From the NCBI GenBank assembly GCA_003141795.1, contig PLNO01000389.1:12522-42787 (forward strand): a stretch of 30,266 nucleotides of DNA, read 5' to 3'. Positions 11,240-30,266 of this stretch are shown in pieces. Origin of the DNA: Spirochaetaceae bacterium. GTDB taxonomy: Bacteria; Spirochaetota; Spirochaetia; SZUA-6; Fen-1364. A program made the position numbers and the translations under genes. The notes beneath the pieces are model-generated. The model was not told the DNA's origin and did no database searches. It saw only the letters and a list, made by a program, of their open reading frames with translations. Positions within the stretch are counted from its first letter, which is position 1. Each line of letters opens with the position of its first letter.

Positions 11240-11257
11240 AGTGGATGAATCCTCTCC

Positions 11258-12025: not shown

Positions 12026-12064
12026 GCTGTTTCGTACACCATTTCCTGGCTGAACGCCAACTGA

Positions 12065-12094
12065 AGAGTAGCATGAACCCGTGTGAATAGTCAA
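12065..12094 (-). promoter_or_regulatory. Promoter of the deoR-GH32 operon
   Basis: On the minus strand TTGACT (12089-12094), an 18-bp spacer and TACTCT (12065-12070). Transcription would begin near 12058, about 33 nt before the DeoR start codon. Confidence 0.6.
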
Positions 12095-12113
12095 CGAATA
12101 GATTTAAATGATG

Positions 12114-12171
12114 AACATTTAATGGAATTATTGGAAAAATGTTGACAAATGATTGTACAGTGTTGTACTGT
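12114..12171 (+). promoter_or_regulatory. Promoter and operator region of the fructoside transporter operon
   Basis: TTGACA (12142-12147), an 18-bp spacer and TACTGT (12166-12171) form a near-consensus promoter. The spacer contains two TTGTAC direct repeats exactly 10 bp apart (12153 and 12163) and the inverted repeat ACAGT-N5-ACTGT (12157-12171), which overlaps the -10 box. Upstream, AACATTT (12114-12120) and AAATGTT (12137-12143) form a second inverted repeat that touches the -35 box. These are natural candidates for binding by the divergent DeoR regulator. Confidence 0.6.
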
Positions 12172-12199
12172 CGGGCAACACTCGTAAAAGGAGAGAGAC

Positions 12200-13501: not shown

Positions 13502-13524
13502 GCGGGTATCGAATCGTTCCCGAG

Positions 13525-13550
13525 GGTGAGGTCCCGTCAGGGGCCTCACC
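13525..13550 (+). other. Intergenic hairpin between binding-protein and permease genes
   Basis: GGTGAGGTCCC pairs with GGGGCCTCACC (one T-G wobble) around a GTCA loop. Hairpins at this spot in binding-protein operons commonly protect the upstream message or reduce permease transcription, so that binding protein exceeds permease. No T-run follows, so it is not a full terminator. Confidence 0.6.
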
Positions 13551-13574
13551 GCTTCCGCGGTCGTCGACGAGGTC

Positions 13575-14657: not shown

Positions 14658-15524
14658 ATGACGGTGTCCACTCTTCGGAGAAGCGGCGCCGTCGCGCTTT
14701 CATATGTCGTGCTCGCCGTGTTCTCCGCCTTCTTCCTCTTTCCCCTGGTGTTCATGATCGTCTCGTCGTTCAAGCCCGAGAAGGTCATCTTCGACGACCT
14801 TGCAACGATCTGGAGGGCGTTCGTCCCAACGCACGTCACCCTCGAGAATTACCGCTACGTCTTCAATCGGGTGCCCTTCTGGCGCTTCATGATGAACTCG
14901 GTCCTCATCACGGTGCTCACCGTGGGAATCGGGTTGATCTTCAACAGCATGCTCGCCTACGCGCTGGCCCGGCTCACCTGGCCAGGGAAGAGAATCGTTC
15001 TGATGGCCGTGATCGCGCTGGCGATCGTGCCCCTGGAGACCGTCGCCATCCCGATGCTCGTCATGGTGAATGGTTTCTGGTGGCCCGATGGGACCCGTGG
15101 ATGGCTCGACACCTACAGGGTCCAGATCATCCCGTTCATCACTGACGCCATGTCGACCTTCATGTTCTACCAGTTCTTCCTCGACCTGCCGAAGCCCATC
15201 GACGAAGCCGCGTACATGGAAGGCTGCAACCCCTTCCAGATCTACTCGAAAATCGTGGTTCCGCTCTCCCGACCTGTTTTCGCTACCGTCACGATCCTCA
15301 ACTCTCTCGCGATCTGGAACTCTTACCTCTGGCCGCTCATGGTCACCAGATCCGAAGCGGTCAGGCCTCTGCCCATCGGGATCACCGCTCTGTACGTTCT
15401 CAACATGCGCTGGGGGTATATCCTCGCCTTCGCCTCGCTCATCACCATTCCGATCCTCATCGTGTTCCTCGTCTTCCAGAAGTTCTTCGTTGCGAGCATC
15501 ACTTCAGCCGGGGTGAAAGGGTAG
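14658..15524 (+). CDS. ABC sugar transporter permease (CUT1, MalG-like)
   Basis: A 288-residue permease with six predicted transmembrane helices and the EAA coupling loop KPIDEAAYMEGCNPFQIYSK near residue 180. The N-terminal helix SYVVLAVFSAFFLFPLVFMIVSSFK and the NYRYVFNRVPFWRFMMNSVLI segment are standard for the MalG side of CUT1 importers. It starts one base after the first permease stop, so the two are translationally coupled. No ATPase gene follows; CUT1 systems often borrow a shared MsmK/MalK-type ATPase encoded elsewhere, which is likely here. Confidence 0.92.
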   Translation: MTVSTLRRSGAVALSYVVLAVFSAFFLFPLVFMIVSSFKPEKVIFDDLATIWRAFVPTHVTLENYRYVFNRVPFWRFMMNSVLITVLTVGIGLIFNSMLAYALARLTWPGKRIVLMAVIALAIVPLETVAIPMLVMVNGFWWPDGTRGWLDTYRVQIIPFITDAMSTFMFYQFFLDLPKPIDEAAYMEGCNPFQIYSKIVVPLSRPVFATVTILNSLAIWNSYLWPLMVTRSEAVRPLPIGITALYVLNMRWGYILAFASLITIPILIVFLVFQKFFVASITSAGVKG

Positions 15525-15571
15525 GGCGTCATGCTATGCTTCCAGGATCCGGTTGCGAGCGGAGGCGGGCG

Positions 15572-15676
15572 ATGTCGGTCCTGATCGAAGTGTGCTGCGG
15601 GTCGGTCGACGATGCGCTGGAGGCGCAGGCGGGCGACGCGCGCGGATCGGACGTGATCCCCCTCAGCTCACCGTGA
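15572..15676 (+). pseudogene. Probable 5' remnant of a CutC-like gene (34 codons)
   Basis: A 34-codon frame reads MSVLIEVCCGSVDDALEAQ and then degenerates into ARGSDVIPLSSP before a stop. This resembles the first 30 residues of CutC-family TIM-barrel proteins (typically a hydrophobic LxEVC strand, a serine-valine motif, DALAAQxGGADRIEL). It has a good ribosome-binding site (GGAGG, 6 nt before ATG) but the remaining 200 or so residues are missing: the frame ends inside the 3' end of yedF, which it overlaps by 14 bp. The likeliest reading is a truncated gene left at a rearrangement boundary. A genuine small protein cannot be excluded. Confidence 0.4.
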
Positions 15677-16298
15677 CGACGTCCTGCGACGCGAGGAACC
15701 TCTCCGTGATCTCCAGAATGTTGGACACGCGTCCCGCACGCAGCCCTTCCTTGAGGTGGTAGTAATCCAGGCAGGTCCCGCACACGAGGATCTCCGTCCC
15801 CTTGGCCTGGATAGCCTTGAGGAGCTCGATGGTTTCTTCCCGCTCCGCGGCAAGGCGCACGCCTGAGTTCATGAGCACGAGAGTCTTCGGCGGCTGCGGA
15901 AGCTCGCTCAGTGTATAGAGCATGCCCTTGATCAGGAGCTTGCCCAGCGATTCATCCCCCCGGCCGATCTGGTCTGCTGAGAAGAACAGAGTCTTCCCGT
16001 TGAGCCGCGCGCCGTCCGTCTCCGACTCTTCTTCGCACCCTGGCGCAGGCTCGCCCCCGGATGCCTTTGCGATCATTGCAGGGGTGACGGACGCCGTGAT
16101 TGTATGGACCTTTCCCGCGCTTGCCACGTGCGGCTGGGCGGCACCGGCGAACGTGAGGAACTTGACCACGTTCTCCCGTGCAGGCTCGTTGTCGACGATC
16201 ACCTCGATTTCATCGAGCCCCCCCGCCGCCAGGGTCTTTCGGCACATGATCACCGGCTGGGGGCAGACAGAACCCTTCGCATCGACCGATTTCTTCAT
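15663..16298 (-). CDS. yedF: Selenium metabolism protein YedF (TusA-like plus DsrE-like)
   Basis: A 211-residue protein. The N-terminal TusA/SirA-like domain has MKKSVDAKGSVCPQPVIMCR, with the sulfur/selenium-carrier cysteine (C12) in the CPQP motif. After an acidic linker (about residues 84-98) the C-terminal half has LFFSADQIGRGDESLGKLLIKGMLYTLSE and ILVCGTCLDYY, typical of the DsrE-like half of the YedF family found next to selD. It probably carries reduced selenium (or sulfur) from a cysteine desulfurase to SelD; this is family and context inference. ATG 16298 follows GGAGGG by about 11 nt. It is the last gene of the selenium operon. Confidence 0.9.
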   Translation of the reverse strand: MKKSVDAKGSVCPQPVIMCRKTLAAGGLDEIEVIVDNEPARENVVKFLTFAGAAQPHVASAGKVHTITASVTPAMIAKASGGEPAPGCEEESETDGARLNGKTLFFSADQIGRGDESLGKLLIKGMLYTLSELPQPPKTLVLMNSGVRLAAEREETIELLKAIQAKGTEILVCGTCLDYYHLKEGLRAGRVSNILEITERFLASQDVVTVS

Positions 16299-16539
16299 AT
16301 CGTTTTTGTCCCTCCTTCAGGACGATCTGATACAGAACCCTCTGCGTTTTGAGCTCGTACCACCACACGGGAAGGTTCGGCCCTCCCGCATCCTCCGAGG
16401 TGAGGATCGAAAACCCGCAGCCGAGCGTTATGGCAACCGGCGTGGGGATAAGATCCACAGGCACTCGAAACCTCTGTAACGCTCCTTCGGCTTCCAAGGT
16501 CTGATGGATGCTGGAGAAAACGACGAGGAGATCAGCCAA
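16210..16539 (-). CDS. DUF3343 putative Se/S carrier protein
   Basis: A 109-residue frame beginning MADLLVVFSSIHQTLEAEGALQR and continuing with VPVDLIPTPVAITLGCGFSI, the pattern of DUF3343, small proteins of about 80 residues that accompany selD and yedF and are annotated as putative selenium/sulfur carriers. The conserved cysteine is C41. The start ATG 16539 overlaps the selD stop by 8 bp. The domain would normally end near residue 80, exactly where yedF starts; here the frame runs on for about 28 more residues (ending GGGGAR) inside yedF, so its natural stop may have been lost. Confidence 0.78.
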   Translation of the reverse strand: MADLLVVFSSIHQTLEAEGALQRFRVPVDLIPTPVAITLGCGFSILTSEDAGGPNLPVWWYELKTQRVLYQIVLKEGQKRYEEIGRCEGFCLPPAGDHVPKDPGGGGAR

Positions 16540-17557
16540 GCTCGATGTTCCCCGCGCCGGGTATCGTCGAGCCGATGCCCGCAGCGGGCACCCCGGCGGC
16601 GCGCATCTCCGCGAGCACCGCTTCCGCTTCCCCGGCGGGGACAGCGGCGAGCAGGCCCCCCGAGGTCTGGGGATCGAAGAGGATGTTCACCATGTCCTCA
16701 CCGACGCTCTCGGGATTGGCGACGAAGCGCAGACGGAACCCCTTGTTCCTGTAGGTACCCTCCGGCACGAGCCCCATTGCCGTGTAGTCCTTCACCGAGG
16801 GCAACAGAGGAACGGAATCAACGGTGATCCGGATGTTCATTCCCGAGTCCGCGGCCATCTCGCACGCGTGGCCCAGGAGCCCGAAGCCGGTGACGTCCGT
16901 GCACGCGTGCACCTCATGACGCTGGAGGATCTCCGATGCCTTCCTGTTCAACATTGCCATGGAGTCGGTGGCGGCGCGAAGCGCCTCCTCGGAGACGAGC
17001 CCTCCGCGCAGCGCCGTGGTGATGAGCCCCGTGCCGATGGGCTTCGTGAGCACGAGGACCTCCCCTCCCCGCAGGGAGTTGTTCAGCCACACTTTCCGCG
17101 GATGGACGATGCCGGTGACGGCATAGCCGAACTTCAGCTCCTTGTCGTCGATGCTGTGCCCGCCGACGAGCGGACAGTCGGCATCGGCGAGTGCTGACAG
17201 CCCCCCGTCCATCATCTTTCGCAGCACCTCGATGTCAAGAGCGCCCACGGGGAACCCGACGATCGTAACAGCGGTGCAGGGCCGTCCCCCCATAGCGTAC
17301 ACGTCGGAAAGCGCGTTCGCGGCGGCGATCCTCCCGTAGAGGAACGGATCGTCCACGATGGGCGGGAAGAAATCGACCGTATGCACGAGGGCCTGCTCGT
17401 CGTTGAGGCGCAGGACGCCGGCATCCTCGCTGCGGCGGAAATCGGCGATGAGGTCAGGGTACTCGCGCTGCGCGAGCCCGCAGAGCGCCTGGTCCAGCAG
17501 GCCCGGGCCGAGCTTCGCCCCGCAGCCGGAGAAACGCGAAAACGAGGTGAGCTTCAT
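16532..17557 (-). CDS. selD: Selenophosphate synthase SelD
   Basis: A 341-residue selenide, water dikinase that makes selenophosphate from selenide and ATP. The N-terminal catalytic pair is in FSGCGAKL (Cys12 and Lys15; cysteine rather than selenocysteine). Further motifs are VHTVDFFPPIVDDP, AANALSDVYAMGG, LVGGHSIDDKELKFGYAVTG, TDVTGFGLLGH and FDPQTSGGLL, covering both halves of the AIR-synthase-like fold. It overlaps the upstream cysteine-desulfurase-like gene by 4 bp and the downstream DUF3343 gene by 8 bp. No selA, selB or selenocysteine tRNA is visible in the window, which together with yqeB and yqeC fits the orphan-SelD system supplying a selenium ligand to molybdenum hydroxylases. Confidence 0.95.
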   Translation of the reverse strand: MKLTSFSRFSGCGAKLGPGLLDQALCGLAQREYPDLIADFRRSEDAGVLRLNDEQALVHTVDFFPPIVDDPFLYGRIAAANALSDVYAMGGRPCTAVTIVGFPVGALDIEVLRKMMDGGLSALADADCPLVGGHSIDDKELKFGYAVTGIVHPRKVWLNNSLRGGEVLVLTKPIGTGLITTALRGGLVSEEALRAATDSMAMLNRKASEILQRHEVHACTDVTGFGLLGHACEMAADSGMNIRITVDSVPLLPSVKDYTAMGLVPEGTYRNKGFRLRFVANPESVGEDMVNILFDPQTSGGLLAAVPAGEAEAVLAEMRAAGVPAAGIGSTIPGAGNIELG

Positions 17558-18732
17558 GAGCCTGCTCCGATCTCCGTGAATGCCCTGAGCGCCGCATCGA
17601 TGTCGGAGGCGGCGGTGAACGGGCCGGGGGACACCCTGAGGGTGCCGCCGCCGTCGTAGGTGCCGAGGGTGCGGTGCGCGGCGGGCGCGCAGTGAAAGCC
17701 CCTGCGGCAGGCGATCCCCCGCATGTCCAGGGCGAGTGCGAGCTCGTCGAGGGGAATGGTATCGTGCGTAACGGAAAAGAGCGGAAGCCTCTGAACGGCG
17801 CTCCCGGGGCCGTGGATGCGGAATCCGGGGATCGAGGATATCCCCGCGCGCAGCTCCTCCGCCGCGCGTCGGCTTCGCGCCGCAAGAGAGTCCACTCCCT
17901 CCCGCGCCAGAAAGCTCACGGCAGCGGCGAGGCCCGCGATGCCGGGGAGGTTCAGCGTGCCGCTTTCATACCTGTCGGGGAGGAAGTCGGGCTGCTCCTC
18001 GGACTCGGATCTGCTCCCCGTGCCGCCGTAGACGAGCGGCGCGGGGGACGCGCGCGGGCCGAGGAAGAGCAGGCCGAGGCCCGCGGGGGCGAGCAGGCCC
18101 TTGTGCGGCGATGCGCAGAAGAAGTCGAAAGGGAATGCTCCGAGGTCGGCGGGGACTTCTCCCGCTGCCTGGGCCGCGTCGATGCACACGAGGGTGGACG
18201 GGGACAGGCGCGCCGCGCGCTCGGCCATTTCCTGGAAGGGGAAGAGTGCGCCCGATACGTTGCTCGCCGCGGTGAAGACCAGGAGGTCAGGGCGGCCCTT
18301 CAGCGCATCGTCGAACGAGGCACTGTCGGGCATGCCCCCGGCGTCGCACGCGAACGAGCGTACTGTGCAGTGCAGCTCCTTCTCCAGCGCGCGCAACGGA
18401 CGCATGACGGCATTGTGCTCCATTGCTGACACTGCCACGGTGCTGCCGGGCCGCAGCGTTCCGCGCAGCACGAGGTTCAGGGAGGCCGTGGTCCCGGGTG
18501 TGAAGAGCAGGCGCGCTGTGTCGGTGAAATCGAAGAGAGCTGCCGCAGCGTTCCGCGCCTCGTGAACGAGCCTGTCGGCCGATACGGCGCCGGCATGCGT
18601 CCCCCGGCCCGGGCTCCCGTAGGGCTCCTGCAGGGATCGAGCGACAGCCTCGGGAACGCCGGGCGCCTTGGGCCAGCTCGTCGCGGCGTTATCGAGGTAC
18701 ACCATCGGGCCAGACATCACGTGGCGAATCAT
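17554..18732 (-). CDS. Cysteine desulfurase/selenocysteine lyase-like class V aminotransferase
   Basis: A 392-residue PLP enzyme. VYLDNAATSWPKAPGV opens the fold; MEHNAVMRPL carries the ring-stacking His106; LVCIDAAQAAGEVP contains the cofactor-binding Asp185; SPHKGLLAPAGLG carries the Schiff-base Lys211; and RRGFHCAPAAH (Cys348) supplies a candidate persulfide or perselenide cysteine. It belongs to the cysteine desulfurase subfamily that sits next to selD and yedF in orphan-SelD genomes and probably mobilises sulfur or selenium for SelD and YedF. ATG 18732 is 11 nt after GAGGGGGA; internal ATGs at 18717 and 18705 are alternatives. It is the first gene of the selenium operon. Confidence 0.88.
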   Translation of the reverse strand: MIRHVMSGPMVYLDNAATSWPKAPGVPEAVARSLQEPYGSPGRGTHAGAVSADRLVHEARNAAAALFDFTDTARLLFTPGTTASLNLVLRGTLRPGSTVAVSAMEHNAVMRPLRALEKELHCTVRSFACDAGGMPDSASFDDALKGRPDLLVFTAASNVSGALFPFQEMAERAARLSPSTLVCIDAAQAAGEVPADLGAFPFDFFCASPHKGLLAPAGLGLLFLGPRASPAPLVYGGTGSRSESEEQPDFLPDRYESGTLNLPGIAGLAAAVSFLAREGVDSLAARSRRAAEELRAGISSIPGFRIHGPGSAVQRLPLFSVTHDTIPLDELALALDMRGIACRRGFHCAPAAHRTLGTYDGGGTLRVSPGPFTAASDIDAALRAFTEIGAGS

Positions 18733-18804
18733 AGCAGGTCATTCCCCCTCTGTGTAGAATAGTGGGCACGGATGCACTACGATGCGTCCCGCAGGAGGAG
18801 CAAC

Positions 18805-19584
18805 ATGGGCATACTCGAGGGACGCACGGCGCTTGTCGCAGGCGGTGGCAGCGGCATCGGCCGCGCGGTGGCGAAGAGGTTCCACGATGAGGGGGCTTTC
18901 GTCGTCATCTGCGGACGCAGGGAATCGAAGCTGAAGGAGGCCTGCGGCCTCATCTCCCCGACGGGCGATCGGGTTCTCGGAGTGCCCGCTGACGTGACGA
19001 GCGCCGTGGACGTCGCGCGTCTGATGTCCGCGGTCATGGCCAAGCGGGGCGGGCTGGACGTCCTTGCCAACTGCATGGGGATCATGCGGTTCGGAAAGCT
19101 GGAGACGCTGGAGCCCGCCGCGCTGCGCAGCATGCTGGAGATCAACACAATCGCCCCGTGGACTCTGTCCGTCGCCGCACTTCCGCTGATGCGTGCGCGG
19201 GGGTCGGGATCGATCGTCAACATCTCATCGATATCCGGTATGCGGCCCTTCGAAGGAAGCGGCGCGTACTGCACGTCCAAGGCGGCGCTCATCATGATGT
19301 CGCAGGTCATGGCGCTCGAGGTGGCTTCTGAAGGGATCCGCATCAACATCATCTGCCCCGGCATGGTGGAGGATACAGAGCTCGGCGACGCCGTGTTCGC
19401 CCCCGACCAGGTGGCCGCTTCCTACCAGAAGTTCCGCTCGGTGCATCCCCTCGGCCGCAATGGCAAGCCGCAGGACGTCGCGGACGCCGCCCTGTTCTTC
19501 GCCTCAGCGCAGAGCTCCTGGATCACCGGCGCGGTCCTCCCCCTGGACGGGGGGAGGCACATGACGTCGAACAAACCTGGGTAA
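18805..19584 (+). CDS. Short-chain dehydrogenase/reductase
   Basis: A 259-residue classical SDR. The NAD(P) loop is GGGSGIG (13-19), with RTALVAG before it; LANCMGI (near residue 88) replaces the usual NNAG; the catalytic Ser142, Tyr155 and Lys159 are in SSISG and AYCTSK; and the C-terminal WITGAVLPLDGG is standard. A basic CGRRES after the second strand suggests NADP(H) preference. ATG 18805 has AGGAGGAG upstream; an in-frame ATG at 18772 lacks one. The gene is divergent from the selenium operon and convergent with carbamate kinase. The substrate, probably an alcohol or hydroxy acid, cannot be told from sequence. Confidence 0.9.
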   Translation: MGILEGRTALVAGGGSGIGRAVAKRFHDEGAFVVICGRRESKLKEACGLISPTGDRVLGVPADVTSAVDVARLMSAVMAKRGGLDVLANCMGIMRFGKLETLEPAALRSMLEINTIAPWTLSVAALPLMRARGSGSIVNISSISGMRPFEGSGAYCTSKAALIMMSQVMALEVASEGIRINIICPGMVEDTELGDAVFAPDQVAASYQKFRSVHPLGRNGKPQDVADAALFFASAQSSWITGAVLPLDGGRHMTSNKPG

Positions 19585-19649
19585 GGCCGGGCGCCCCGCC
19601 CAGGCGCGCGCAATTTGGGCGTCCTCTCGGTTTCCCACTCACATCATGA

Positions 19650-19710: not shown

Positions 19711-20658
19711 CTAGGGTAAAAACGTCGTCCCGCTCCTGCCCTGCAGCGCTTCCACGGCCTTGTCCAGCGCGCCGATGATGGCAGGCCTGCCGCTCCATCG
19801 CACGAATCGAAGGCACGCCTCCACTTTCGGACCCATCGACCCCTTGAGGAAGTGGCCGTCGCGGAGATAGCCTTCGGCCTCGGCGACGCTCAGCGCGTCG
19901 ACGCAGCAGGCGTGCGGAGTCCCGTAGCGCAACGACACCCTCTCCACGTCCGTGAGGATCATGAGCCGGTCAGCGTTGATCGCCCGCGCGAGTGTATAGC
20001 TCGCCTTGTCCTTGTCGATGACGGCGTTCACGCCCAGGAGGCTGCCGTCGGGCTCACGCGCCACGGGGATACCGCCGCCGCCCGATGCGATCACGACGAA
20101 CCCGTCGGCCAGGAGTGCCTTGATGGCCTTCTCCTCGACGATCTCCTGCGGCTCGGGTGAGGGCACTACGCGCCGCCAGCCCTTTTCGCACCCCGGCTTC
20201 ACGAGCTTGATGCAGTAGCGCTTGGACTTCTGGAGCGCCTGCGCCTCTTTTTCCGTATAGAAGGGCCCCACCGGCTTCGACGGGTCCTGGAAATCCGGAT
20301 CGTCCCTGCTCACGAGCACCTGCGTGACGAGGCTGCACGCCTCTGTTTCCAGGCCCTCGGCGCGAAGGTAGTGGGTGAGGCGATTCTGGATCATCCAGCC
20401 GATGGACCCCTGCGTCATTGCCCCGCAGGCGGCAAGGCTCTGCCCCGGCACCACGGCCTCGGTTTCTTCCTGCTGGATGAGGAGGGCTCCTGCCTGGGGG
20501 CCGTTACCGTGGGCAACCACGACGCGGTACCCCGATCTGGCGATCCGTGCGATCTGGCGGGCCGTCGTATCGACGTTGGCGAACTGCTCATCCGTCGTTC
20601 CCCTCTGGCCTGACTGGAGAATGGCGTTGCCGCCCAGTGCGATGACGAGAGTTTCCAT
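19711..20658 (-). CDS. arcC: Carbamate kinase
   Basis: A 315-residue carbamate kinase of normal length. It makes ATP from carbamoyl phosphate and ADP, releasing ammonia and carbon dioxide. Motifs are METLVIALGGNAIL at the start, VVVAHGNGPQAGALLIQQE, CGAMTQGSIGWMIQN, FVVIASGGGGIPV, NAVIDKDKASYTLA and FLKGSMGPKVEACLRF. ATG 20658 with AGGAAGG upstream is chosen; the frame is open for 27 more codons but those cover the promoter. It is transcribed away from the GntR regulator and the dapA-hyuAB-ygeW arm, and with the ygeW carbamoyltransferase it forms a carbamoyl phosphate to ATP step. Confidence 0.95.
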   Translation of the reverse strand: METLVIALGGNAILQSGQRGTTDEQFANVDTTARQIARIARSGYRVVVAHGNGPQAGALLIQQEETEAVVPGQSLAACGAMTQGSIGWMIQNRLTHYLRAEGLETEACSLVTQVLVSRDDPDFQDPSKPVGPFYTEKEAQALQKSKRYCIKLVKPGCEKGWRRVVPSPEPQEIVEEKAIKALLADGFVVIASGGGGIPVAREPDGSLLGVNAVIDKDKASYTLARAINADRLMILTDVERVSLRYGTPHACCVDALSVAEAEGYLRDGHFLKGSMGPKVEACLRFVRWSGRPAIIGALDKAVEALQGRSGTTFLP

Positions 20659-20688
20659 GCCGGTGCACCTTCCTGAGTTGTGGACTAC

Positions 20689-20699
20689 TGGTCTGACCG
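20689..20699. promoter_or_regulatory. GntR/FCD-type operator, carbamate kinase side
   Basis: TGGTCTGACCG is a near-perfect palindrome (TGGTC-T-GACCG) matching the GntR/FCD pattern TNGTNNNACNA in all but the last base. It lies just downstream of the predicted minus-strand transcription start for arcC, a repressing position. The 9-bp core TGGTCTGAC recurs at 20832. Confidence 0.6.
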
Positions 20700-20710
20700 C
20701 AATAGGACCG

Positions 20711-20739
20711 ACGATACGGCCATTTGTTTCTCCTGTCAA
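20711..20739 (-). promoter_or_regulatory. Promoter of carbamate kinase
   Basis: On the minus strand TTGACA (20734-20739), a 17-bp spacer and TATCGT (20711-20716), with an A-run of eight just upstream of the -35 box that could act as an UP element. Transcription would start near 20704, immediately before the TGGTCTGACCG operator. Confidence 0.65.
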
Positions 20740-20793
20740 TTGATTTTTTTTCCAGGCATAAATACGGGGCTTTTTGAAGGATCACGATTTTCC

Positions 20794-20823
20794 TTGACAG
20801 GGGACATTCGGATGCACTACGAT
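20794..20823 (+). promoter_or_regulatory. Promoter of the GntR-led catabolic operon
   Basis: TTGACA (20794-20799), an 18-bp spacer and TACGAT (20818-20823). Transcription would start near 20830, overlapping the TGGTCTGACAG site. The 15-mer CGGATGCACTACGAT at the -10 box also occurs just upstream of the SDR gene (18769-18783). Confidence 0.65.
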
Positions 20824-20831
20824 CGGAATCG

Positions 20832-20842
20832 TGGTCTGACAG
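20832..20842. promoter_or_regulatory. GntR/FCD-type operator, regulator side
   Basis: TGGTCTGACAG shares the 9-bp core TGGTCTGAC with the site at 20689-20699. It lies directly at the predicted start of the gntR transcript, so autorepression is likely. Confidence 0.55.
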
Positions 20843-20874
20843 CCGTACCGACTATGGCAAAGACAGGGGAAAGC

Positions 20875-21600
20875 ATGTTCGAGCGCCTCCATACTCAGAA
20901 AAACTATATGCAGATCGCGCGTCAAATCCGCGACCTCATCCGCGACGGCACCCTGAAGGTGGGGGAACAGCTCCCCCCTGAACGGACCCTCGTCGAGCAG
21001 TTCGGGGCGTCGCGCGCATGCGTCCGCGAGGCCTTGAGCGCCCTGGAGATGCTCGGCCTCATCGAGTGCCGCAGCGGGCAGGGCAACTACATCAAGGCGG
21101 ACGGCTCGGAAGGCACCATCGACGGCGAGATGCTGAAGGCCCTGCTCAGCGACCACGACCCCTACGAGATCTTCGAGGCCCGCCTGGAGATAGAGCCGAA
21201 CATGTCCGCTCTCGCGGCGGAACGCGCTACCGACGAAGAGCTGGAGCAGCTCAAGGGGTTCATCGTCAAGCTTCGCGACCTTGGTGGGGCCATCGTCAGG
21301 GAAGGCTTCAAGGATGAGATCGTCGACGAGTACATGGAGACCGACAGGCGATTCCACCTTGAGATCGGCCGCGCCGCCCATAACAACGTCCTTTTCACCG
21401 TCTTCTCAGGCGTCAACCTCATGACCAAAGAGACCCACTGGAAGGGCATGAAGAGCAAGGGCCTTTCCAATGAGGAGAACATCAAGGCGTATGAGGTGGA
21501 GCACGATGCCATTCTCACCGCCATCCTCCAGAAGGACGGCCGTGCGGCGTGGAAAGAGTCGAAGAGGCATCTGCAGATGCTGAAGAAGAGCCTTTTCTAG
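20875..21600 (+). CDS. GntR-family regulator with FCD ligand-binding domain
   Basis: A 241-residue FadR-subfamily regulator. The winged helix-turn-helix (about residues 8-72) reads QIARQIRDLIRDGTLKVGEQ, PPERTLVEQFGASRACVREAL and LEMLGLIECRSGQGNYI. The helical FCD domain follows, with FEARLEIEPNMSALAAERA, DRRFHLEIGRAAHN and VEHDAIL, carrying the Asp and His residues that usually bind a metal and a carboxylate ligand. ATG 20875 follows AGGGGAAA and is preferred over the in-frame ATG at 20854, which lacks a ribosome-binding site. It begins the catabolic operon and is divergent from arcC; an organic or amino acid is the likely effector. Confidence 0.93.
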   Translation: MFERLHTQKNYMQIARQIRDLIRDGTLKVGEQLPPERTLVEQFGASRACVREALSALEMLGLIECRSGQGNYIKADGSEGTIDGEMLKALLSDHDPYEIFEARLEIEPNMSALAAERATDEELEQLKGFIVKLRDLGGAIVREGFKDEIVDEYMETDRRFHLEIGRAAHNNVLFTVFSGVNLMTKETHWKGMKSKGLSNEENIKAYEVEHDAILTAILQKDGRAAWKESKRHLQMLKKSLF

Positions 21601-21686
21601 AATCCATTTTTCGGACAACACGCGTCAACGTTACAGCGGCCTGCGCTCGGCGACGCGACAGAGATACGACCAACAGGAGGAAGAGG

Positions 21687-22580
21687 ATGGTTTCTGGCAA
21701 CGATGTCAAAGGTGTGTTTCCTGCCCTCGTCACCCCTTTCACGAAGAAGGACCAGGTTGACCTCAAGGGTGTGGAGAAGATCACGAAGTTTCTCATCGAC
21801 AACGGCGTCCATGCGCTGATGCCCGTCGGCGGCACGGGGGAGTTCCCCAGCCTGCTCCGCGAGGAGAAGCGCGATGTGGTGGCCGCGGTGGCCCGCGTTG
21901 CCAAGGGGAAGGTCCCCATCATCCCCGGCACGGCTGCCTGCAGCACGCGCGAGGTTATCATCCTCAGCAACGAGGCGCATGAAGCGGGGGCGGACGCGGT
22001 CATCATCACCGCGCCGTACTACTTCAAGCTCTCCGATGCATCGCTCATCGAGCACTACACGACGGTGGCCGCCAATGTCGGCTGCCCTGTCATCGTCTAC
22101 AACAACCCCTTGTACACGGGAAACCCCATGAGCCCGCAGGTCCTCGCCAAGCTCATGTCGGTGAAGAACATCATCGGCGTGAAGAACAGCTCTCCCGACA
22201 TGGGCCAGCTCGTCGAGATGATCCGCCTCTCCCCCAAGGGCAAGAGCCTGTGCACGGGCATCGACAGCCAGTTCTACCCCGCGCTGTGCGTCGGGGCATC
22301 CGGGTTGTATTCCACGGCGGCCTGCATCGTCCCCGCGGAGATGGTGAAGCTGTACGACCTCACCATGGCGGGCAAGCACAAAGAGGCGCTTGCGCTCAGC
22401 ATGAAGCTCCAGACCCTCAATCGCTACCTCGAATACGATCCGGGGTATGTCGCTCCCGCGAAGGAAGCGCTGAACCTCCTTGGTCTGCCCGGTGGCTACC
22501 TCCGTGGGCCGCTCCCCCAGCTCACCTCGGCAGAGAAGGCGGGCGTGAAAGCGGCGCTGAAGACCATCGGGGTCCTGTAA
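21687..22580 (+). CDS. DapA/N-acetylneuraminate lyase-family aldolase or lyase
   Basis: A 297-residue TIM-barrel class I aldolase of the dihydrodipicolinate synthase family. It has GVFPALVTPF at the N-terminus, PVGGTGEFPSLLREEK (GGTGE at 48-52), the catalytic Tyr138 in PVIVYNNPLY, and the Schiff-base Lys166 in IIGVKNSS. The family cleaves or forms 2-keto acids such as 4-hydroxy-tetrahydrodipicolinate, sialic acid, or 2-keto-3-deoxy sugar acids. Placement with hydantoinase and carbamoyltransferase genes, not lysine genes, argues for a catabolic lyase; the substrate is unknown. ATG 21687 follows AGGAGG; the gene is 86 bp after the regulator and 13 bp before hyuA. Confidence 0.9.
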   Translation: MVSGNDVKGVFPALVTPFTKKDQVDLKGVEKITKFLIDNGVHALMPVGGTGEFPSLLREEKRDVVAAVARVAKGKVPIIPGTAACSTREVIILSNEAHEAGADAVIITAPYYFKLSDASLIEHYTTVAANVGCPVIVYNNPLYTGNPMSPQVLAKLMSVKNIIGVKNSSPDMGQLVEMIRLSPKGKSLCTGIDSQFYPALCVGASGLYSTAACIVPAEMVKLYDLTMAGKHKEALALSMKLQTLNRYLEYDPGYVAPAKEALNLLGLPGGYLRGPLPQLTSAEKAGVKAALKTIGVL

Positions 22581-22593
22581 AGAGGCGACAGCG

Positions 22594-24663
22594 ATGAAAC
22601 TGCGGATGGGAGTCGACACCGGAGGGACCTTCACCGACGGCGTGGTGATCGACGAAAAGGGTACGATTCACAACTTCAAAGAGCTCTCCACGCCCCGGGA
22701 CCCCTCCATCGGTTTGTACAACGTCATCAAGAAGGCGGCCGAGCATTTCGGCAAGGACGTGCGCGGGTTCCTGGGAGACCTGGATTTCTTCGCGCACGGC
22801 ACCACCGTCGCCACGAACACCCTTCTCACGGGGACCGGCGCGAAGACCGGGCTCATCCTGACGAAGGGCTTCAGGGACACGCTGGAGATGCGCAGGGCCC
22901 ACAAGGAGAACATCTGGGACCTGTACCTGCCCGCCGCCATTCCCCTCGTTCCCCGGCGCCTGCGCATCGGGGTGACGGAGAGGATCGACGCCGCGGGGAA
23001 GGTCGTCCTCCCCCTTGTCGAGCAGGACGTGTATCGCGCCTGCGAGCTGTTCAAGAAGGAGGGGGTGAAGGCGGTCGCGATCTGCACGCTGTTCTCCTTC
23101 CTCAACGACGAGCACGAGAAGGCCATCAGGGCGATCGTCCAGAAGGAGATGCCGGACGCCTTCATCTCCATCTCCTCCGAGGTGCTCTCCCAGATCCGTG
23201 AGTACGAACGCATGTCGACGACCGTCGCCAACGCGTACGTCGGCCCCAAGCTCACCGTGTACCTGTCCACGCTGGACAGGCGTCTGAAGAGCGACGGCCT
23301 GACCCGCGCCTTCTATATTACCGCCTCCAATGCGGGAGTCATGACGGCGGACACCGCCATACGGCACGCCTCCGCCACGCTCCTCTCGGGTCCCGCGGCA
23401 GGCGCCGTGGGCGGGATCTTCTTCGCCGAGCTCCTGAAGCTCGGCAACCTCATCACGATGGACATGGGGGGGACCTCCTTCGACGTGACCCTCGTGAACG
23501 AGGGCAAGGTCACCCTCAGCACGGAAGGCTCCATCGCGGGCTACCGCATCGCCAAGCCGATGTGCGACATCAACACCATCGGCGCGGGGGGCGGCTCCAT
23601 CGCGTGGACCGATGCGGGCGGCATGCTGAAGGTCGGACCCGCCTCCGCAGGCTCGGACCCCGGCCCGGTCTGCTACGACCTGGGCGGAACGAAGCCCACC
23701 GTGACCGACGCGAACCTGCTCCTCGGCTACCTCGACAAGGACTACTTCCTCGGCGGGGAGATGAAAGTCAACGAGCAGAAGACCAAAGAGGCGATGCGCA
23801 CGGTCATCGCCGATCCGCTGGGCATGTCCGTCGTGGACGCAGCGGCAGGGATCTTCCGCATCATCAACCAGAGCATGGCGGACGCGACAAAGGTCGTATC
23901 GGTCCAGCGCGGCTTCGATCCGCGCGAGTACGCGCTGGTGAGCGCGGGCGGGGCCTGCTCGATCCATGCGTGCAAGATCGCCGAAGAGGTGGGGTCCACC
24001 ACAGTCATCGTCCCCAAGGCGGCAAGTGTTTTCTGCGCCCTGGGCATGCTGGAATCGGACATCCGCCTGGACAGCCTGAAGACCTACCACGCCGTGATCC
24101 CCGGCATCGACCTTTCCGAGTTCAACGTCGTCATCGAGCAGGCGGAGAAGAAGGCGATGACCGAGCTGCTGCAGGAAGGGGTGGAGCGGGAGCGGGCGAG
24201 CCTCGTGCGGCACCTGGACATGCGCTACGTCGGCCAGCACCACGAGGTGAACGTCGACATCCCCTCCAACTGCCGCATCGAGGAGAAGCACCTGCCGATC
24301 ATCGCGGAGGCGTTCCACAAGGCGCACGAGAAGCTCTACACCTACTCCACGCCCGAGAACCCCATAGAGATCATGAACCTCCGCATTACGGCGGTTGGCG
24401 CGGTCCAGAAGACGGGGCTGTTCGAGCACCCGATCAAGGGTCCGGATCCCGCAAAAGCCTTCAAGCACAAGCGCAAGCTCCACTTCCAGGAGGCCGGAGG
24501 ATTCGTCGAGGTTCCCGTCTACAACAGGGACCTCCTCGTGCCGGGCAATGTCGTGCCCGGACCCGCGGTCATCGAGGAGCGGATCACGACCATCGTCGTG
24601 CACCCCAACTGGAACGCGCGCATCGACGCGTTCGAGAACGTCGTCATGGAGGCACGGGCGTGA
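22594..24663 (+). CDS. hyuA: N-methylhydantoinase A/oxoprolinase alpha subunit (HyuA)
   Basis: A 689-residue protein of the hydantoinase A/oxoprolinase family. The N-terminal ASKHA phosphate loop is GVDTGGTFTDG (6-16), followed by FFAHGTTVATNTLLTGTGAKTGLI, LLSGPAAGAVGG, ITMDMGGTSFDV and NTIGAGGGSIAW, and a C-terminal MRYVGQHHEVNV segment. With HyuB it hydrolyses cyclic amides such as hydantoins or 5-oxoproline at the cost of ATP; related pairs carboxylate ketones. It begins 13 bp after the dapA-like gene and overlaps hyuB by 4 bp. This is not the dihydropyrimidinase-type enzyme that is also called HyuA in E. coli. Confidence 0.92.
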   Translation: MKLRMGVDTGGTFTDGVVIDEKGTIHNFKELSTPRDPSIGLYNVIKKAAEHFGKDVRGFLGDLDFFAHGTTVATNTLLTGTGAKTGLILTKGFRDTLEMRRAHKENIWDLYLPAAIPLVPRRLRIGVTERIDAAGKVVLPLVEQDVYRACELFKKEGVKAVAICTLFSFLNDEHEKAIRAIVQKEMPDAFISISSEVLSQIREYERMSTTVANAYVGPKLTVYLSTLDRRLKSDGLTRAFYITASNAGVMTADTAIRHASATLLSGPAAGAVGGIFFAELLKLGNLITMDMGGTSFDVTLVNEGKVTLSTEGSIAGYRIAKPMCDINTIGAGGGSIAWTDAGGMLKVGPASAGSDPGPVCYDLGGTKPTVTDANLLLGYLDKDYFLGGEMKVNEQKTKEAMRTVIADPLGMSVVDAAAGIFRIINQSMADATKVVSVQRGFDPREYALVSAGGACSIHACKIAEEVGSTTVIVPKAASVFCALGMLESDIRLDSLKTYHAVIPGIDLSEFNVVIEQAEKKAMTELLQEGVERERASLVRHLDMRYVGQHHEVNVDIPSNCRIEEKHLPIIAEAFHKAHEKLYTYSTPENPIEIMNLRITAVGAVQKTGLFEHPIKGPDPAKAFKHKRKLHFQEAGGFVEVPVYNRDLLVPGNVVPGPAVIEERITTIVVHPNWNARIDAFENVVMEARA

Positions 24664-26423
24664 GCGCACAAATCAGAAAGAAAGAGTTCGAGGGGGCGCG
24701 TGACCCCATCACCCTTTCGGTGATCTACAACAGGCTCCTGACGATCAACCAGGAGATGGGGATCACGATGATCAACACCTCCATCTCCCCCATCTTCGCG
24801 GAGGTGCACGATTTCTCCTGCGCCATCTGCGACTGGGACAACAGGATCGTCGCGCAGATCGACGGCGTGCCTTCGCACACCGCGTCGGTCATGGAATCGG
24901 TGAAGGCGGTGAGCAGGGAGTTCGGTGGCGACATCAACCCGGGGGACGTGTTCGTTCTCAACGATCCGTACCTCGGCGGAACGCATCTCCCCGACATCAC
25001 CATCATGAAGCCGATCTTCTTCGAGGGGAAGCTCCAGTTCATCGCCATCAATCGCGCCCACCACGGGGACGTCGGGGGCATTGTGCCCGGCTCCTACGTG
25101 CCCAGCGCGACGGAGCTCTTCCACGAGGGGATCCGCATTCCGCCCCTGCGCATTTATAAGGACGAAAAACCCATCCAGGACGTCGTGAACATGATCCGCA
25201 TCAACACGCGCATGCCCGACGCCCTGTGGGTCGACATGAAGGCGCAGGTCGCCTCCTGCCGCGTGGCGGAGAAGAGGATCATCGAGCTCGTCGCGAAATA
25301 CGGCGTAGAGAAGACCCGCGCGACGATCGAGGACATCCACACGTACGCCGAGCGAAGGATGCGCAAGGAGATCGAGAAGCTCACCGACGGGCTGTACGAA
25401 GGGGAGACGTTTCTCGACTCCGACGGGTTCAGCGACAAGCGCATCAGGATCAAGGTGTCGATCCGTATCAAGGGCGACGAAGCCTGGGTCGACTTCGCGG
25501 GTTCCGATCCGCAGGTGACGGGCTTCGTGAACTCCCCCATGGCCAACACCGCCACGTGCGTGTATGTCGCGTTCCTCACCACGGTGACCACACCCGACAT
25601 CCCGCACAACCAGGGCGTGTACAGGCCCGTGCACATCACCGCACCCGAGGGGTCCGTTGTGAACGCGAAGTTCCCCGCCCCCGTTGGCTCATGCACGCTG
25701 GATACCGCCTGCGCGATCCTCGAGGCGTGCTGGATGGCCCTCTCCAAGGTGCTCCCCGACAGGGTGCCCGCTGGGTGGAACCGGTGGAACGGACCGACCA
25801 TCACCGGCGTGGACCCGCGCTCGGCCAGCTTCTACGTCATGTTCGGATTCAACGGCTTCGGCGGGGCAGGTGGCATGCCGGGGCTCGACGGGCGGCACTA
25901 CATCGGGGACGGGATCGACCTGGGCGGGCTCATCGCCCCGAACATCGAGACGAACGAAACCGACTATCCCCACCTCACCGAGTTCAACGAGTTCACCACG
26001 GACTCCTGCGGTGCGGGGAAGTGGCGGGGCGGATGCGGGGCGAAGTACAGGATCGGCCTGTACGACGAGAACCCCACCCTCGTCATGTTCGGCGACGGCA
26101 AGGTGACGCCGCCCTACGGACTGTTCGGTGGGAAGCCGGGCTCGTGCAACATCGCCTTCATCAATGAGGGTAAGGCGGGTACGCGGGAGCTGCGGGCCAA
26201 GGAAACGGTTCAGCTCGTGAAAGGAGACACCTACTCCACCTATCCCTCGGGGGGAGGCGGATGGGGCAATCCCCTGGAGCGCGATCCAGAAGCGGTGCGC
26301 GAGGACGCGCGCAATGAGATCGTCTCCCGTGAGGCGGCGCAGAAGCTGTACGGCGTCGTTCTCGAGGGGGAGGAGTACGTGATCAACACCGAAAAGACAC
26401 GCGCTCTGCGCAGCGGGAGATAG
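24660..26423 (+). CDS. hyuB: N-methylhydantoinase B/oxoprolinase beta subunit (HyuB)
   Basis: A 587-residue HyuB-family subunit. It has DPITLSVIYNRLLTINQEMG at the start, then SAICDWDNR-like CAICDWDN, GVPSHTASVMESV, DVFVLNDPYLGGTHLPDI, NRAHHGDVGG and a C-terminal YPSGGGGWGNP, all hallmarks of the family. GTG 24660 overlaps the hyuA stop as GTGA, so the two are coupled. The same frame stays open for more than 350 codons upstream across hyuA, but that part shows no domain and is a GC-rich shadow. Partners HyuA and HyuB are both full length, so the complex should be active. Confidence 0.93.
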   Translation: MSAQIRKKEFEGARDPITLSVIYNRLLTINQEMGITMINTSISPIFAEVHDFSCAICDWDNRIVAQIDGVPSHTASVMESVKAVSREFGGDINPGDVFVLNDPYLGGTHLPDITIMKPIFFEGKLQFIAINRAHHGDVGGIVPGSYVPSATELFHEGIRIPPLRIYKDEKPIQDVVNMIRINTRMPDALWVDMKAQVASCRVAEKRIIELVAKYGVEKTRATIEDIHTYAERRMRKEIEKLTDGLYEGETFLDSDGFSDKRIRIKVSIRIKGDEAWVDFAGSDPQVTGFVNSPMANTATCVYVAFLTTVTTPDIPHNQGVYRPVHITAPEGSVVNAKFPAPVGSCTLDTACAILEACWMALSKVLPDRVPAGWNRWNGPTITGVDPRSASFYVMFGFNGFGGAGGMPGLDGRHYIGDGIDLGGLIAPNIETNETDYPHLTEFNEFTTDSCGAGKWRGGCGAKYRIGLYDENPTLVMFGDGKVTPPYGLFGGKPGSCNIAFINEGKAGTRELRAKETVQLVKGDTYSTYPSGGGGWGNPLERDPEAVREDARNEIVSREAAQKLYGVVLEGEEYVINTEKTRALRSGR

Positions 26424-26432
26424 GAGAAAAGG

Positions 26433-27569
26433 ATGCAGCCGATCAAAAAGATTGCGGTACTGGGTGCGGGAAGCGGGGGGTTCATGTGCGCCGCGGACGC
26501 GGGCAGCATGGGATACGAGGTAGCCCTGTTCTCCCGCGACATGAAACGTATTCAGGGGGTCAAGGATCACGGTGCCATCGAGGTGCTGGACATCGACTCC
26601 AAGCCCACGGGCATGACGGGCAAGGTCGCACTTGCAACGAGCGACATCGCGGCGGCGGTGAAGGGCGCGCAGGTGATCCTGAACCCCATCCCGTACTTCG
26701 CCAGCGAAGAGTATGCCCGCCTGACCCTTCCCCATCTGGAAGAGGGACAGGTGGTCGTGCAGCTCGGCAAGGGCGGTGCATCGCTCACCTGGGCGAAGGT
26801 CGCCCGGGAGCTCAAGATCAAGAAGAAGATCTACTTCGCCGACACGAACACGCTGCCCTACGGCGCCTCCCGCAAGGGAGAGCACCAGGTGCGGCTGGAG
26901 AACAGGACGCTGAACCTGATCCTTGCGACGTTCCCCGGCAGAGATATCGACGAGGTGGCGGAGGTGGTCTCCCACGTGTTTACGAAGGAGCACGGCTACG
27001 AGATCAGGAAGGGCCAGAACGCCATCGACTCCATCCTCGTGGACTACAACGCCATCACGCACACCCCCCCGATGATCTGCAACGCTGCGCGCATCGAGGG
27101 CGGGGGAAAGCCCTTCTTCCTCTTCGGGAAGAAGGAGAACACCCCGGGGGTCGTGCGCATGATCGAGCGCATCGACCGTGAGCGCATGGCCATCGGTCAG
27201 GCCCTGGGGATGAAGCAGTGGACGCTCGAGGAAGAGATCAAGATGGTGAAGTGGAACCCCAAGGGGGAGGACTACGTCCTTCCCCTGTACGACGCGATCC
27301 ACACGCCGTTCCTCGAGGTGTGCGAAGGGCCCTACACCCTGGATACCCGTCACCTCACGGAGGACATTCCCTTCGGTCTGGTGACATATTCTTCACTGGG
27401 GAAGATGCTCGGAGTGCCCACTCCGGTGACCGATGCCATCATTTCCCTGGCCGAGGTGCTGCTCCAGAAGGATTTCCGCAGCATCGGCCGCACGGTGGAG
27501 TCACTGGGAATCAATCCCTCGTGGTCGCCCAAGAAACTGGCGAAGTATCTGCGTGACGGAACGGTCTAA
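26433..27569 (+). CDS. NAD/NADP octopine/nopaline (opine) dehydrogenase-family protein
   Basis: A 378-residue protein. The N-terminal Rossmann domain has [19 protein letters not shown] (GAGSGG at 11-16), and the C-terminal half is the helical octopine dehydrogenase domain with [23 protein letters not shown], including the conserved His, and [20 protein letters not shown]. Family members oxidise or form opines, that is N-(carboxyalkyl) amino acids, by NAD(P)-linked reductive amination. It is 9 bp after hyuB with GGAG upstream. The genuine substrate is unknown; in this operon it may handle an amino acid released from the ring-opened product. Confidence 0.85.
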
Positions 27570-27594
27570 CAACAGGAAAAAGGGAGGAACTGAC

Positions 27595-28170
27595 ATGAGC
27601 AATCTGAAGGGACGCGATCTGTTGGGAATTTCGGATTTCAGCCGGGAGGAGATCGAGCTCACCCTGGAAGTGGCCAGGCAGTTGAAGCTGGATCAGAAGA
27701 TCGGCAGGGCCCACAACCTCCTGCAGGGCAAGACCCTGGCGGGGATCTTCGAGACGCCGTCGACAAGGACCAGCATCTCCTTCGAGACCGCCATGACGCA
27801 GCTGGGCGGCCACATGATCTACCTCAATGAGACCCGCATGTGGGTCGGCACAGCGGCGGAGGAAGACTGGCACGACACCGTCATGACGATCGACCGCTAC
27901 GTCGACGGGATCGCGCATCGCCCGATCATGCGCAAGGCCATTGAGCAGGCCGCCGAATACGCGAGCATCCCGGTGATCAACGCCTCCTGCCCCGTGGAGC
28001 ATCCCTGCCAGGCCTTTGCCGACGTGATGACCATGATGGAGAAGAAGGGCTCGCTGAAGAAGGCGAAGGTCGCGCTGTGCTGGGGATACCGCAAGGCGAA
28101 TCCCCCCGCGGGCCTCACCAACTCGATGATGCTGATGGCCGGCAAGCTCGGCTTCGACATCACCGTGGCC
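27595..28170 (+). CDS. ygeW: YgeW-type carbamoyltransferase, N-terminal part only
   Basis: The first 190 or so residues of an aspartate/ornithine carbamoyltransferase-family protein: [14 protein letters not shown] (STRTS at 56-60 binds carbamoyl phosphate), [26 protein letters not shown] YVDGIAHRP and [15 protein letters not shown] (HPCQ at 136-139). Length, HPCQ and the LNETRMWVG segment favour the YgeW branch found in purine-catabolic clusters. ATG 27595 follows GGGAGG. After [10 protein letters not shown] the sequence changes abruptly to formate-tetrahydrofolate ligase, so the second (amino-acid-binding) domain is missing. In the real genome it presumably continues as a normal gene of about 400 codons. 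Confidence 0.85.
28150..28170. other. Junction of two unrelated sequences (probable assembly chimera)
   Basis: The 21 bases here encode GFDITVA, which is plausible in both the carbamoyltransferase (after MAGKL) and formate-tetrahydrofolate ligase (before [10 protein letters not shown]). Upstream genes are spirochaete-like; all downstream genes are alphaproteobacterial in style. The shared bases would let an assembler or a PCR step join the two molecules in frame. Confidence 0.85.
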
Positions 28171-29244
28171 TCCGAGGTGATGGCCATCCTCTGCCTGGCC
28201 GACTCGCTGGACGACCTCGAGCGCCGGCTGGCCAATATCGTGGTCGGCCAGACCCGCGACCGCATCCCCGTCCGCGCCAGCGATCTGAAGGCGTCCGGGG
28301 CCATGGCCGCGGTGCTGAAAGACGCGATCAAGCCCAACCTGGTGCAGACGCTGGAGAACAATCCGGTCCTGGTGCACGGCGGGCCCTTCGCCAACATCGC
28401 CCATGGCTGCAACTCGGTGCTGGCCACCCGGCTGGCGTTGAAGCTCAGCGACTATGTGGTCACCGAGGCCGGCTTCGGCGCCGATCTGGGCGCGGAGAAG
28501 TTCTTCGACATCAAGTGCCGCAAGGCCGACCTCTTTCCAGACCTGGCGGTGATCGTCGCCACTGTCCGCGCGCTCAAATTCCACGGCGGGGTGAAACGCA
28601 GCCGGCTGGGCCGCGAAAACGTCGCGGCGGTGACCCGCGGCATGGCCAATCTTGAGCGGCATATCGAGAACATCCGCAAGTTCGGCGTGCCGCCCATCGT
28701 GGCGATCAACCATTTCACCGCCGATTCGGCCGCCGAGCAGGGGGCGATCGTCGCCGGCTGCGCGGCGCTGGGCGTCCAGGCCATCGTCTGCCGCCATTGG
28801 GCCGAGGGCGGCGCCGGGGCCGAGGATCTGGCCCGGGCCGTTGTCGCGGCGATCGACAGGGCCGAGGCCAATTTCCACACCCTCTATCCCGACAACATGC
28901 CGCTTCTGAAGAAGATCGAGACCATCGCCTTCCAGATCTATCGCGCCGGCGAGGTGGTGGTTTCCAAGCCCGCCGCCGACCGCCTGGCCGAGCTCGAGGC
29001 GCAGGGCTTCGGCCACCTGCCGGTCTGCATCGCCAAGACCCAGTATTCCAACTCCACCGACCCCGCCCTCTACGGCGCGCCCACCGGCCACGTCCTGCCC
29101 GTCCGCGAGGTGCGGCTCTCGGCGGGCGCTGAGTTTGTCGTGGCCATCTGCGGAGACATCATGACCATGCCGGGCCTGCCGCGCCGGCCGTCGGCGGAAA
29201 CGATCGGCGTGGCCGCGGACGGCCGCATCGTCGGACTATCCTAG
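28150..29244 (+). CDS. fhs: Formate-tetrahydrofolate ligase, C-terminal two thirds only
   Basis: The frame continues from the carbamoyltransferase into about 364 residues of formate-tetrahydrofolate ligase: [38 protein letters not shown] [66 protein letters not shown] and [21 protein letters not shown]. The family is about 557 residues; the first 190 or so, including the ATP-binding P-loop, are absent, so as written the protein would be dead. Codon choice and sequence style resemble Caulobacterales or related Alphaproteobacteria. The gene activates formate to 10-formyltetrahydrofolate in one-carbon metabolism. Confidence 0.88.
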
Positions 29245-29247
29245 GCC

Positions 29248-29832
29248 GTGGAAGACGTCGCCGCCTGGCGCACGCGCGAGCGCGAACGGCTGATCGCCGC
29301 GCGCATGGCCACGCCGGCGGCCGCGCACCGGGCCTCCAGCGCCGAGATAGGCAGGCTGCTGCTGGCGCATTTTATGCCGGCCAATCCAGGCATCGTCGGC
29401 TGCTACTGGCCCTTTCGTCGCGAGTTCGACTGTCTGCCCATCATGCGCCGCATCATCGCCCTGGGCGGCGAAGTCGCCCTGCCCGTGGTCATCCGGCCCC
29501 GCCATCCGTTGGAGTTCCGACGCTGGACCGCGCAGACCGAGATGGCCAAGGGCGTCTGGAACATCCCGCACCCGGCCGGCGGGCCAGCGGTGCATCCGGC
29601 GACCCTGCTCGTCCCGCTGGTCGGCTTCGACGCAGCCGGCTACCGCCTAGGCTACGGCGGGGGCTTCTACGACCGCACCCTGGCGGCCTTCCCGCACCGG
29701 CCTCAGACCTGGGGGGTCGGGTTCGAAATGGCGCGGCTTGAGACCATTCACCCGCAAGATCACGACGTGCCGATGGACCACATCGTCACCGAGACAGGCA
29801 TAGTTCCTCCCCTAGTGCCGGATAGAAACTAG
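29248..29832 (+). CDS. 5-formyltetrahydrofolate cyclo-ligase
   Basis: A 194-residue enzyme that converts 5-formyltetrahydrofolate to 5,10-methenyltetrahydrofolate with ATP. The signature [15 protein letters not shown] is near residue 132, with [11 protein letters not shown] and LLVPLVGFD before it and the terminal [10 protein letters not shown]. It starts with GTG 29248, 3 bp after the fhs stop, so the two folate genes form an operon. Its 3' end overlaps that of metK by 4 bp in convergent orientation. The protein looks complete and alphaproteobacterial. Confidence 0.9.
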
Positions 29833-30266
29833 GCCAGACCGCGCAGCGCATCCACCAGGTCGGTCTTTTCCCAGGAGAATCCGCCATCCGCGTCGGGCGT
29901 GCGGCCGAAGTGGCCGTAGGCCGTGGTGCGGGCATAGATCGGGCGGTTCAGTTTCAGGTGCTCGCGGATAGCCCTGGGCGTCGCGCCGCCGATCATCTCC
30001 GGCAGCGCCTTTTCCAGCTTGGCCGGGTCGATCTCGGCCTTGCCGTGCAGGTCGACATAGAAGCTGAGCGGATGCGCGACGCCGATCGCATAGCCGATCT
30101 GGATGGTGCATTTCTCGGCCAGGCCGGCGGCCACCACGTTCTTGGCCAGGTAGCGGCAGGCATAGGCCCCCGAGCGGTCGACCTTGGTCGGATCCTTGCC
30201 GGAGAAGGCGCCGCCGCCGTGCGGAGCCGCGCCGCCATAGGTGTCGACGATGATCTTGCGCCCGGT
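29829..30266 (-). CDS. metK: S-adenosylmethionine synthase, C-terminal part (start beyond window)
   Basis: The last 145 residues of MetK, which makes S-adenosylmethionine from methionine and ATP. The frame enters at the window edge with [19 protein letters not shown] and continues with [20 protein letters not shown], the glycine-rich phosphate-binding and metal-binding segments of the family, then [18 protein letters not shown] and a C-terminal [20 protein letters not shown]. No frameshift is seen. Its sequence style is alphaproteobacterial like the neighbouring folate genes. Confidence 0.95.

Follow-up and report, generated by a model that had tools for sequence, protein, structure and literature searches.

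Does the long frame at 27595-29244 on the forward strand of contig PLNO01000389.1 encode a new two-domain protein, or does it mark the point at which two genomes were joined? Within the window, that is, the whole stretch of 30,266 nucleotides analyzed here, this frame ran from ATG to stop over 549 codons without an internal stop, and Pfam assigned two domains to it: residues 7-149 to OTCace_N (PF02729; E 3.9e-42) and residues 175-549 to FTHFS (PF01268; E 1.8e-167), the latter covering profile positions 182-556 of 556. The second carbamoyltransferase domain (PF00185) was not found in the hybrid by the Pfam scan. Two motifs were likewise absent from it: HC(L/M)P, which we take to be the second-domain motif of carbamoyltransferases and which lies at residue 288 of the intact relative P0121, and GEGKTT, presumably the P-loop of formate-tetrahydrofolate (THF) ligase, found at residue 74 of the intact relative P0002. 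Among the matches listed, HC(L/M)P was also absent from 7 of 119 carbamoyltransferases and GEGKTT from 12 of 119 formate-THF ligases (FTHFS), all 12 of them short (324-453 aa). Judged by the joint presence of PF02729 and PF00185, the hybrid is not an ornithine/aspartate carbamoyltransferase, and judged by a full PF01268 with its P-loop, it is not a formate-THF ligase. The preliminary description had read the 549-codon frame as the start of a carbamoyltransferase continued by the C-terminal part of a formate-THF ligase, each partner lacking an essential half; the open frame, the two truncated domains and the parental alignments given below bear this out.

The left part of the frame (27595-28170, +) corresponded to a truncated spirochaete-type gene resembling those of ornithine carbamoyltransferases, of which it keeps the N-terminal half that binds carbamoyl phosphate, as indicated by PF02729, identity to P0121 and blastn. 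In alignment with P0121 (333 aa, both domains), 177 of 192 hybrid residues were identical, followed by only 11 of 141. A search of residues 1-192 against the protein collection retrieved 271 proteins; among the best 120 of these, P0121 was the closest relative (92% identical) and P0001, the hybrid itself, was the only one carrying an FTHFS domain. Organism-named relatives among the matches listed belonged to Spirochaetes or Spirochaetales (71-73%), and one match at 67% was named Bipolaricaulota, which counts against the reading favored below. The family had initially been given as YgeW-type, an identity that we rejected on the model scores: the ornithine carbamoyltransferase model TIGR00658 scored 165 bits and two YgeW models 43 and 36 bits (cut-offs, 453 and 500), all scores being those of a half protein that falls below every full-length model cut-off.

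The right part (28150-29244, +) consisted of the last 364 codons of an alphaproteobacterial formate-THF ligase gene (fhs), without the first third that includes the P-loop, as supported by PF01268 and identity to P0002. From residue 186 onward, 359 of 364 residues were identical to intact P0002 (562 aa), compared with 5 of 100 in the residues before. P0002 headed the ligase relatives at 99% identity among the best 120 of 8000 candidates scored, and Caulobacteraceae-named relatives among the matches listed reached 90% (P0008) and 87% (P0012). Two spirochaete genomes (G001 and G002) carry their own FTHFS, 46% and 51% identical to the right half of the window's frame; the enzymes of 19 alphaproteobacterial loci were 60-69% identical to it. 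When closer alphaproteobacterial genomes were sought by order around G015, G220 and G063, the best identity to P0002 was 75% (G739), and the best match among plasmid records was 68.6%.

The two parental matches overlapped solely at GFDITVA, hybrid residues 186-192, encoded by the 21 bases GGCTTCGACATCACCGTGGCC at 28150-28170 (+), which fit both parent proteins and the alphaproteobacterial locus L020. Alignment of the hybrid to its parents placed the switch at the same seven residues, where identity to P0121 and to P0002 both collapse, in agreement with the position first proposed. The 21-mer GGCTTCGACATCACCGTGGCC occurred once in the window and never in shuffled sequences; among the 63 loci compared, only the alphaproteobacterial fhs of L020 contained it exactly. 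GFDITVA was present in 2 of 119 carbamoyltransferases among the matches listed, the closest relative P0121 being one of them, and GFDITVAS was present in 115 of 119 FTHFS among the matches listed. The alignment starts at 28149 and not at 28150 in 13 of 14 loci (9 of 10 genomes), so that base 28149 (C) fits the FTHFS side; base 28171 (T) would be compatible with a cysteine codon in P0121. The overlap at the join is thereby estimated at 21-23 bases, with the bases of the left parent deduced from its protein; of the roughly 20 shared bases originally proposed, the shared GFDITVA in both parent proteins is observed directly, and the nucleotide identity on the left is putative. Overlaps of 21-23 bases are long enough for a de Bruijn walk with short k to pass from one genome into another. 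In a comparison of 10 spirochaete-class loci (107 kb) with 26 alphaproteobacterial loci (159 kb), 21-mers were shared by chance at one independent place, which scales to approximately 943 per pair of 4-Mb genomes, a figure that derives from a single count and gives an order of magnitude only.

The genes to the left of the join retained a spirochaetal arrangement. The octopine-dehydrogenase-family gene (26433-27569, +; PF02317) was 89% identical to its counterpart in L044 of genome G558 and 71-74% identical to those in L001, L002 and L045-L047. The hydantoinase B-like gene (24672-26423, +; PF02538, E 1.7e-169; start codon provisional) was 79-82% identical in L001, L045, L046 and L047 and matched L044 as two pieces (91% and 88%), and the order around the hydantoinase A-like gene (22594-24663, +; PF05378/PF01968/PF19278) was kept in L001, L058/L059, L045, L046 and L047. 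With labels taken from Pfam, the order dapA-like, hyuA, hyuB, octopine dehydrogenase and carbamoyltransferase was found wholly or partly in L001, L002, L045-L047 and L058/L059, of which L001 and L002 come from metagenome-assembled genomes titled Spirochaetes and Spirochaetia. By blastn (E 1e-10), the window was collinear with the reversed contig G558:C252, whose genome was chosen from the same class as G001 (source of L001; title, Spirochaetes bacterium), in four blocks at 73-84% identity (15669-19596, 19727-23227, 23284-24967 and 25065-28157), none of which extended past 28157. Downstream of its carbamoyltransferase, G558 carries transketolase, spread over two frames, and then genes for GrdB, a glycine reductase component and a thioredoxin-reductase-like protein, the last three of which are also present in L002; both spirochaete relatives thus run into glycine-reductase genes where the window turns into fhs.

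Several features of this side merit mention in their own right. The recurring cluster at 20680-28170 comprises genes for a GntR/FCD regulator, a DapA-family protein, hydantoinase A- and B-like proteins, an octopine-dehydrogenase-like protein and the carbamoyltransferase, and an amino-acid-kinase gene (PF00696) lies at 19711-20739. If we guess that this kinase is a carbamate kinase, the genes could form a catabolic operon in which a carbamoyl compound yields ATP. In the G558 relative, the GrdB gene (L044:4400-5770, -) contains one in-frame TGA (STUGTCTRC) followed by 89 open codons, the TGA corresponding to residue 352 if it encodes selenocysteine, and the window has YedF and YqeB selenium genes scoring above their cut-offs. 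YqeB was found in 1 of 10 spirochaete-class genomes and in none of four alphaproteobacterial genomes. Collinearity with G558 starts only at 15669, although the G558 contig runs approximately 8.4 kb further. Window positions 1-15600 gave only scattered weak DNA matches, in three of four spirochaete-class genomes, and an ABC permease within 1-15668 was 55% identical to that of G349, 28-45% identical in nine other spirochaete-class genomes and 31% identical in the best of four alphaproteobacterial genomes. Near 15.6 kb there may be a rearrangement or another join. The statement that everything upstream is spirochaete-like therefore held only for 15.67-28.16 kb, by virtue of the G558 collinearity, with thin evidence for 1-15.6 kb.

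To the right of the join, the window followed alphaproteobacterial genomes belonging to the same class as G003, which contains L009 and bears the title uncultured Alphaproteobacteria bacterium. All 14 alphaproteobacterial fhs loci compared, from 10 genomes, aligned with the window from 28149 or 28150 onward, and the lone match further left, in G716, covered 119 bases of the hydantoinase-B-like gene (26248-26362). The next gene encodes 5-formyltetrahydrofolate cyclo-ligase (29248-29832, +; TIGR02727, 141 bits; cut-off, 84.9), and its product was 96% identical to P0240 and 77% identical to Caulobacteraceae-named P0259. This gene was the next one matched beyond fhs in four of five genomes of one order (G063, G715, G716 and G728), fhs in the fifth (G739) ending at base 2 of its contig; of 19 alphaproteobacterial loci with flanks of approximately 1.5 kb, only one (L015) had it near fhs. 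Several relatives of fhs and of the cyclo-ligase gene occurred on equal-sized contigs (5608, 90034, 70161 and 3214 bases), which suggests linkage. The window ends within metK (29829-30266, -; PF02773, E 1.7e-52), whose C-terminal part runs off the end and which is assigned to the alphaproteobacterial side by position only; no metK was found in those alphaproteobacterial fhs loci whose flanks were scanned. The alphaproteobacterial character previously ascribed to the downstream genes is thus supported for the cyclo-ligase.

Base composition lent weak support to a two-sided origin. The tetranucleotide profile of 28171-30266 was the furthest from the left part among 14 segments, with a mean difference of 0.397 compared with 0.205-0.295 and a correlation of 0.622 compared with 0.734-0.902 for the other segments. 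The GC content of the right side fell within the range of the left side and gave no separation, and codon usage separated the sides weakly. A comparison of k-mer composition across the join, as had been advised, therefore revealed a difference in tetranucleotides and hardly any in GC content or codon usage. Codon usage was too weak to place the break independently and was set aside, its change point being fitted at 28221 rather than 28170 and the carbamoyltransferase piece being neutral (-0.9).

Occurrence of the fusion in an isolate genome had been named as evidence against a false join. The whole hybrid was searched against approximately 5.8 billion proteins, from which the 8000 candidates sharing the most words were scored; no second hybrid was found among the best 120, where P0001, the hybrid itself, was the sole two-domain entry and the other 119 matches were FTHFS covering 59-66% of the query. 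A degenerate pattern for the 14-residue junction gave no matches in viral_contigs or in genome_contigs (84,980 species), the exact junction 48-mer gave none in viral_contigs, and, judged by title, none of four papers listed by a literature search dealt with such a fusion. Intact near relatives of both parents, P0121 and P0002, occur separately, and the junction did not recur in the collections searched. As a separate observation, the false fusion P0001 already stands among the collected proteins as a two-domain entry, with a longest contig of 43,019 bases; if that contig is identical with the present one, approximately 12.7 kb lie outside the window. P0142 (884 aa; octopine dehydrogenase, carbamoyltransferase and transketolase), on a contig of 10,877 bases, was considered as a second fusion and rejected: its domain order equals the gene order of G558, and a frame-shifted read-through of neighboring genes is the more likely origin.

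Collectively, with a probability of approximately 0.86, our reading of the sequence is that the contig is a chimera formed in assembly, in which a spirochaete-type piece was joined to a Caulobacteraceae-like alphaproteobacterial piece. Intact relatives of the two parents found apart, an abrupt switch, an overlap compatible with both parent proteins, neighborhoods that differ between a spirochaetal side collinear to 28157 and an alphaproteobacterial side aligned from 28149/28150, and the lack of a second copy in the collections searched all support the chimeric join put forward in the preliminary description. The hybrid frame, present in the sequence, almost certainly does not exist in nature and is an artefact rather than a new protein. 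In the proposed scenario, sequence from an uncultured spirochaete-type genome would break off within the carbamoyltransferase gene, and sequence from a Caulobacteraceae-like alphaproteobacterial genome would take over within the formate-THF ligase gene. The two genes would each encode GFDITVA, for which high-GC codon choice could yield 21 identical bases, or a run of 22 or 23 with a matching base at one or both edges, and an assembler working at k near 21 could walk between the genomes through the shared node. With the shared bases in the same phase in both genes, the frame would remain open across the join. Two elements of this scenario are inferred: the precise nucleotides of the left parent and the step taken by the assembler. 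For synthetic reads, PMC7329831 reports chimeric contigs at 1% in coassembly and 2.2% in multiassembly and describes them as rare; assembly with iterated k is also described there.

Two other origins of the join deserve weighing, and both are unlikely. The chimera could have been made in the laboratory, by template switching during PCR or whole-genome amplification or by fragment ligation, the assembler merely recording it. Template switching likewise relies on short identity and would leave a break of the same anatomy; such a molecule is, however, less likely to leave an overlap fitting both genes or to dominate an assembly, since true reads normally outweigh a lone chimeric molecule and simple ligation needs no shared bases, so that an overlap fitting both genes is not expected from it. 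We judge the laboratory origin improbable. Very improbable is a natural cross-phylum recombination at approximately 21 bases of microhomology, in which a spirochaete operon would have received an alphaproteobacterial segment, or vice versa. The frame is open and in phase through the join, as such an event would allow, but the essential halves of both enzymes are lost, so that a hybrid gene formed in this way would probably be dead; no second copy appeared among the matches listed or, as an exact amino-acid pattern, in 84,980 genomes; and no mobile-element gene was present among the five genes scanned around the join. With the right-hand proteins 96-99% identical to P0002 and P0240, the event would also have to be very recent. 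A functional two-domain enzyme coupling carbamoyl phosphate to folate chemistry, for which the open frame alone speaks, is scarcely conceivable given a ligase without its P-loop motif, a carbamoyltransferase without its second domain and no second copy among the matches listed.

If assembly produced the join, the contig needs to be split at 28150-28170 before binning or annotation; left unsplit, it would keep a false fusion protein in the collections and credit an alphaproteobacterial folate cluster to a spirochaete. The value of this clear example of an in-frame artefact slipping through gene calling lies in correcting the record.

Compared with known systems, the left half resembles ornithine-carbamoyltransferase-like proteins from uncultured spirochaetes, with P0121 as the nearest, over residues 1-192 (92%), and these relatives have operon neighbors in common; P0121 carries a second domain with HC(L/M)P, whereas the hybrid has none. 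The right half resembles the fhs product of Caulobacteraceae-like alphaproteobacteria, nearest P0002, in its last 364 residues (359 identical), and the cyclo-ligase gene follows fhs as in some of these relatives, but the first 198 residues of P0002, P-loop included, are missing. As a whole, the contig is comparable to chimeric inter-genome contigs of metagenomes, with an abrupt switch inside genes, between two bacterial groups, at a short sequence compatible with either, and with no second copy among the matches listed; it differs from them in that the join is in frame and is therefore predicted as one long protein.
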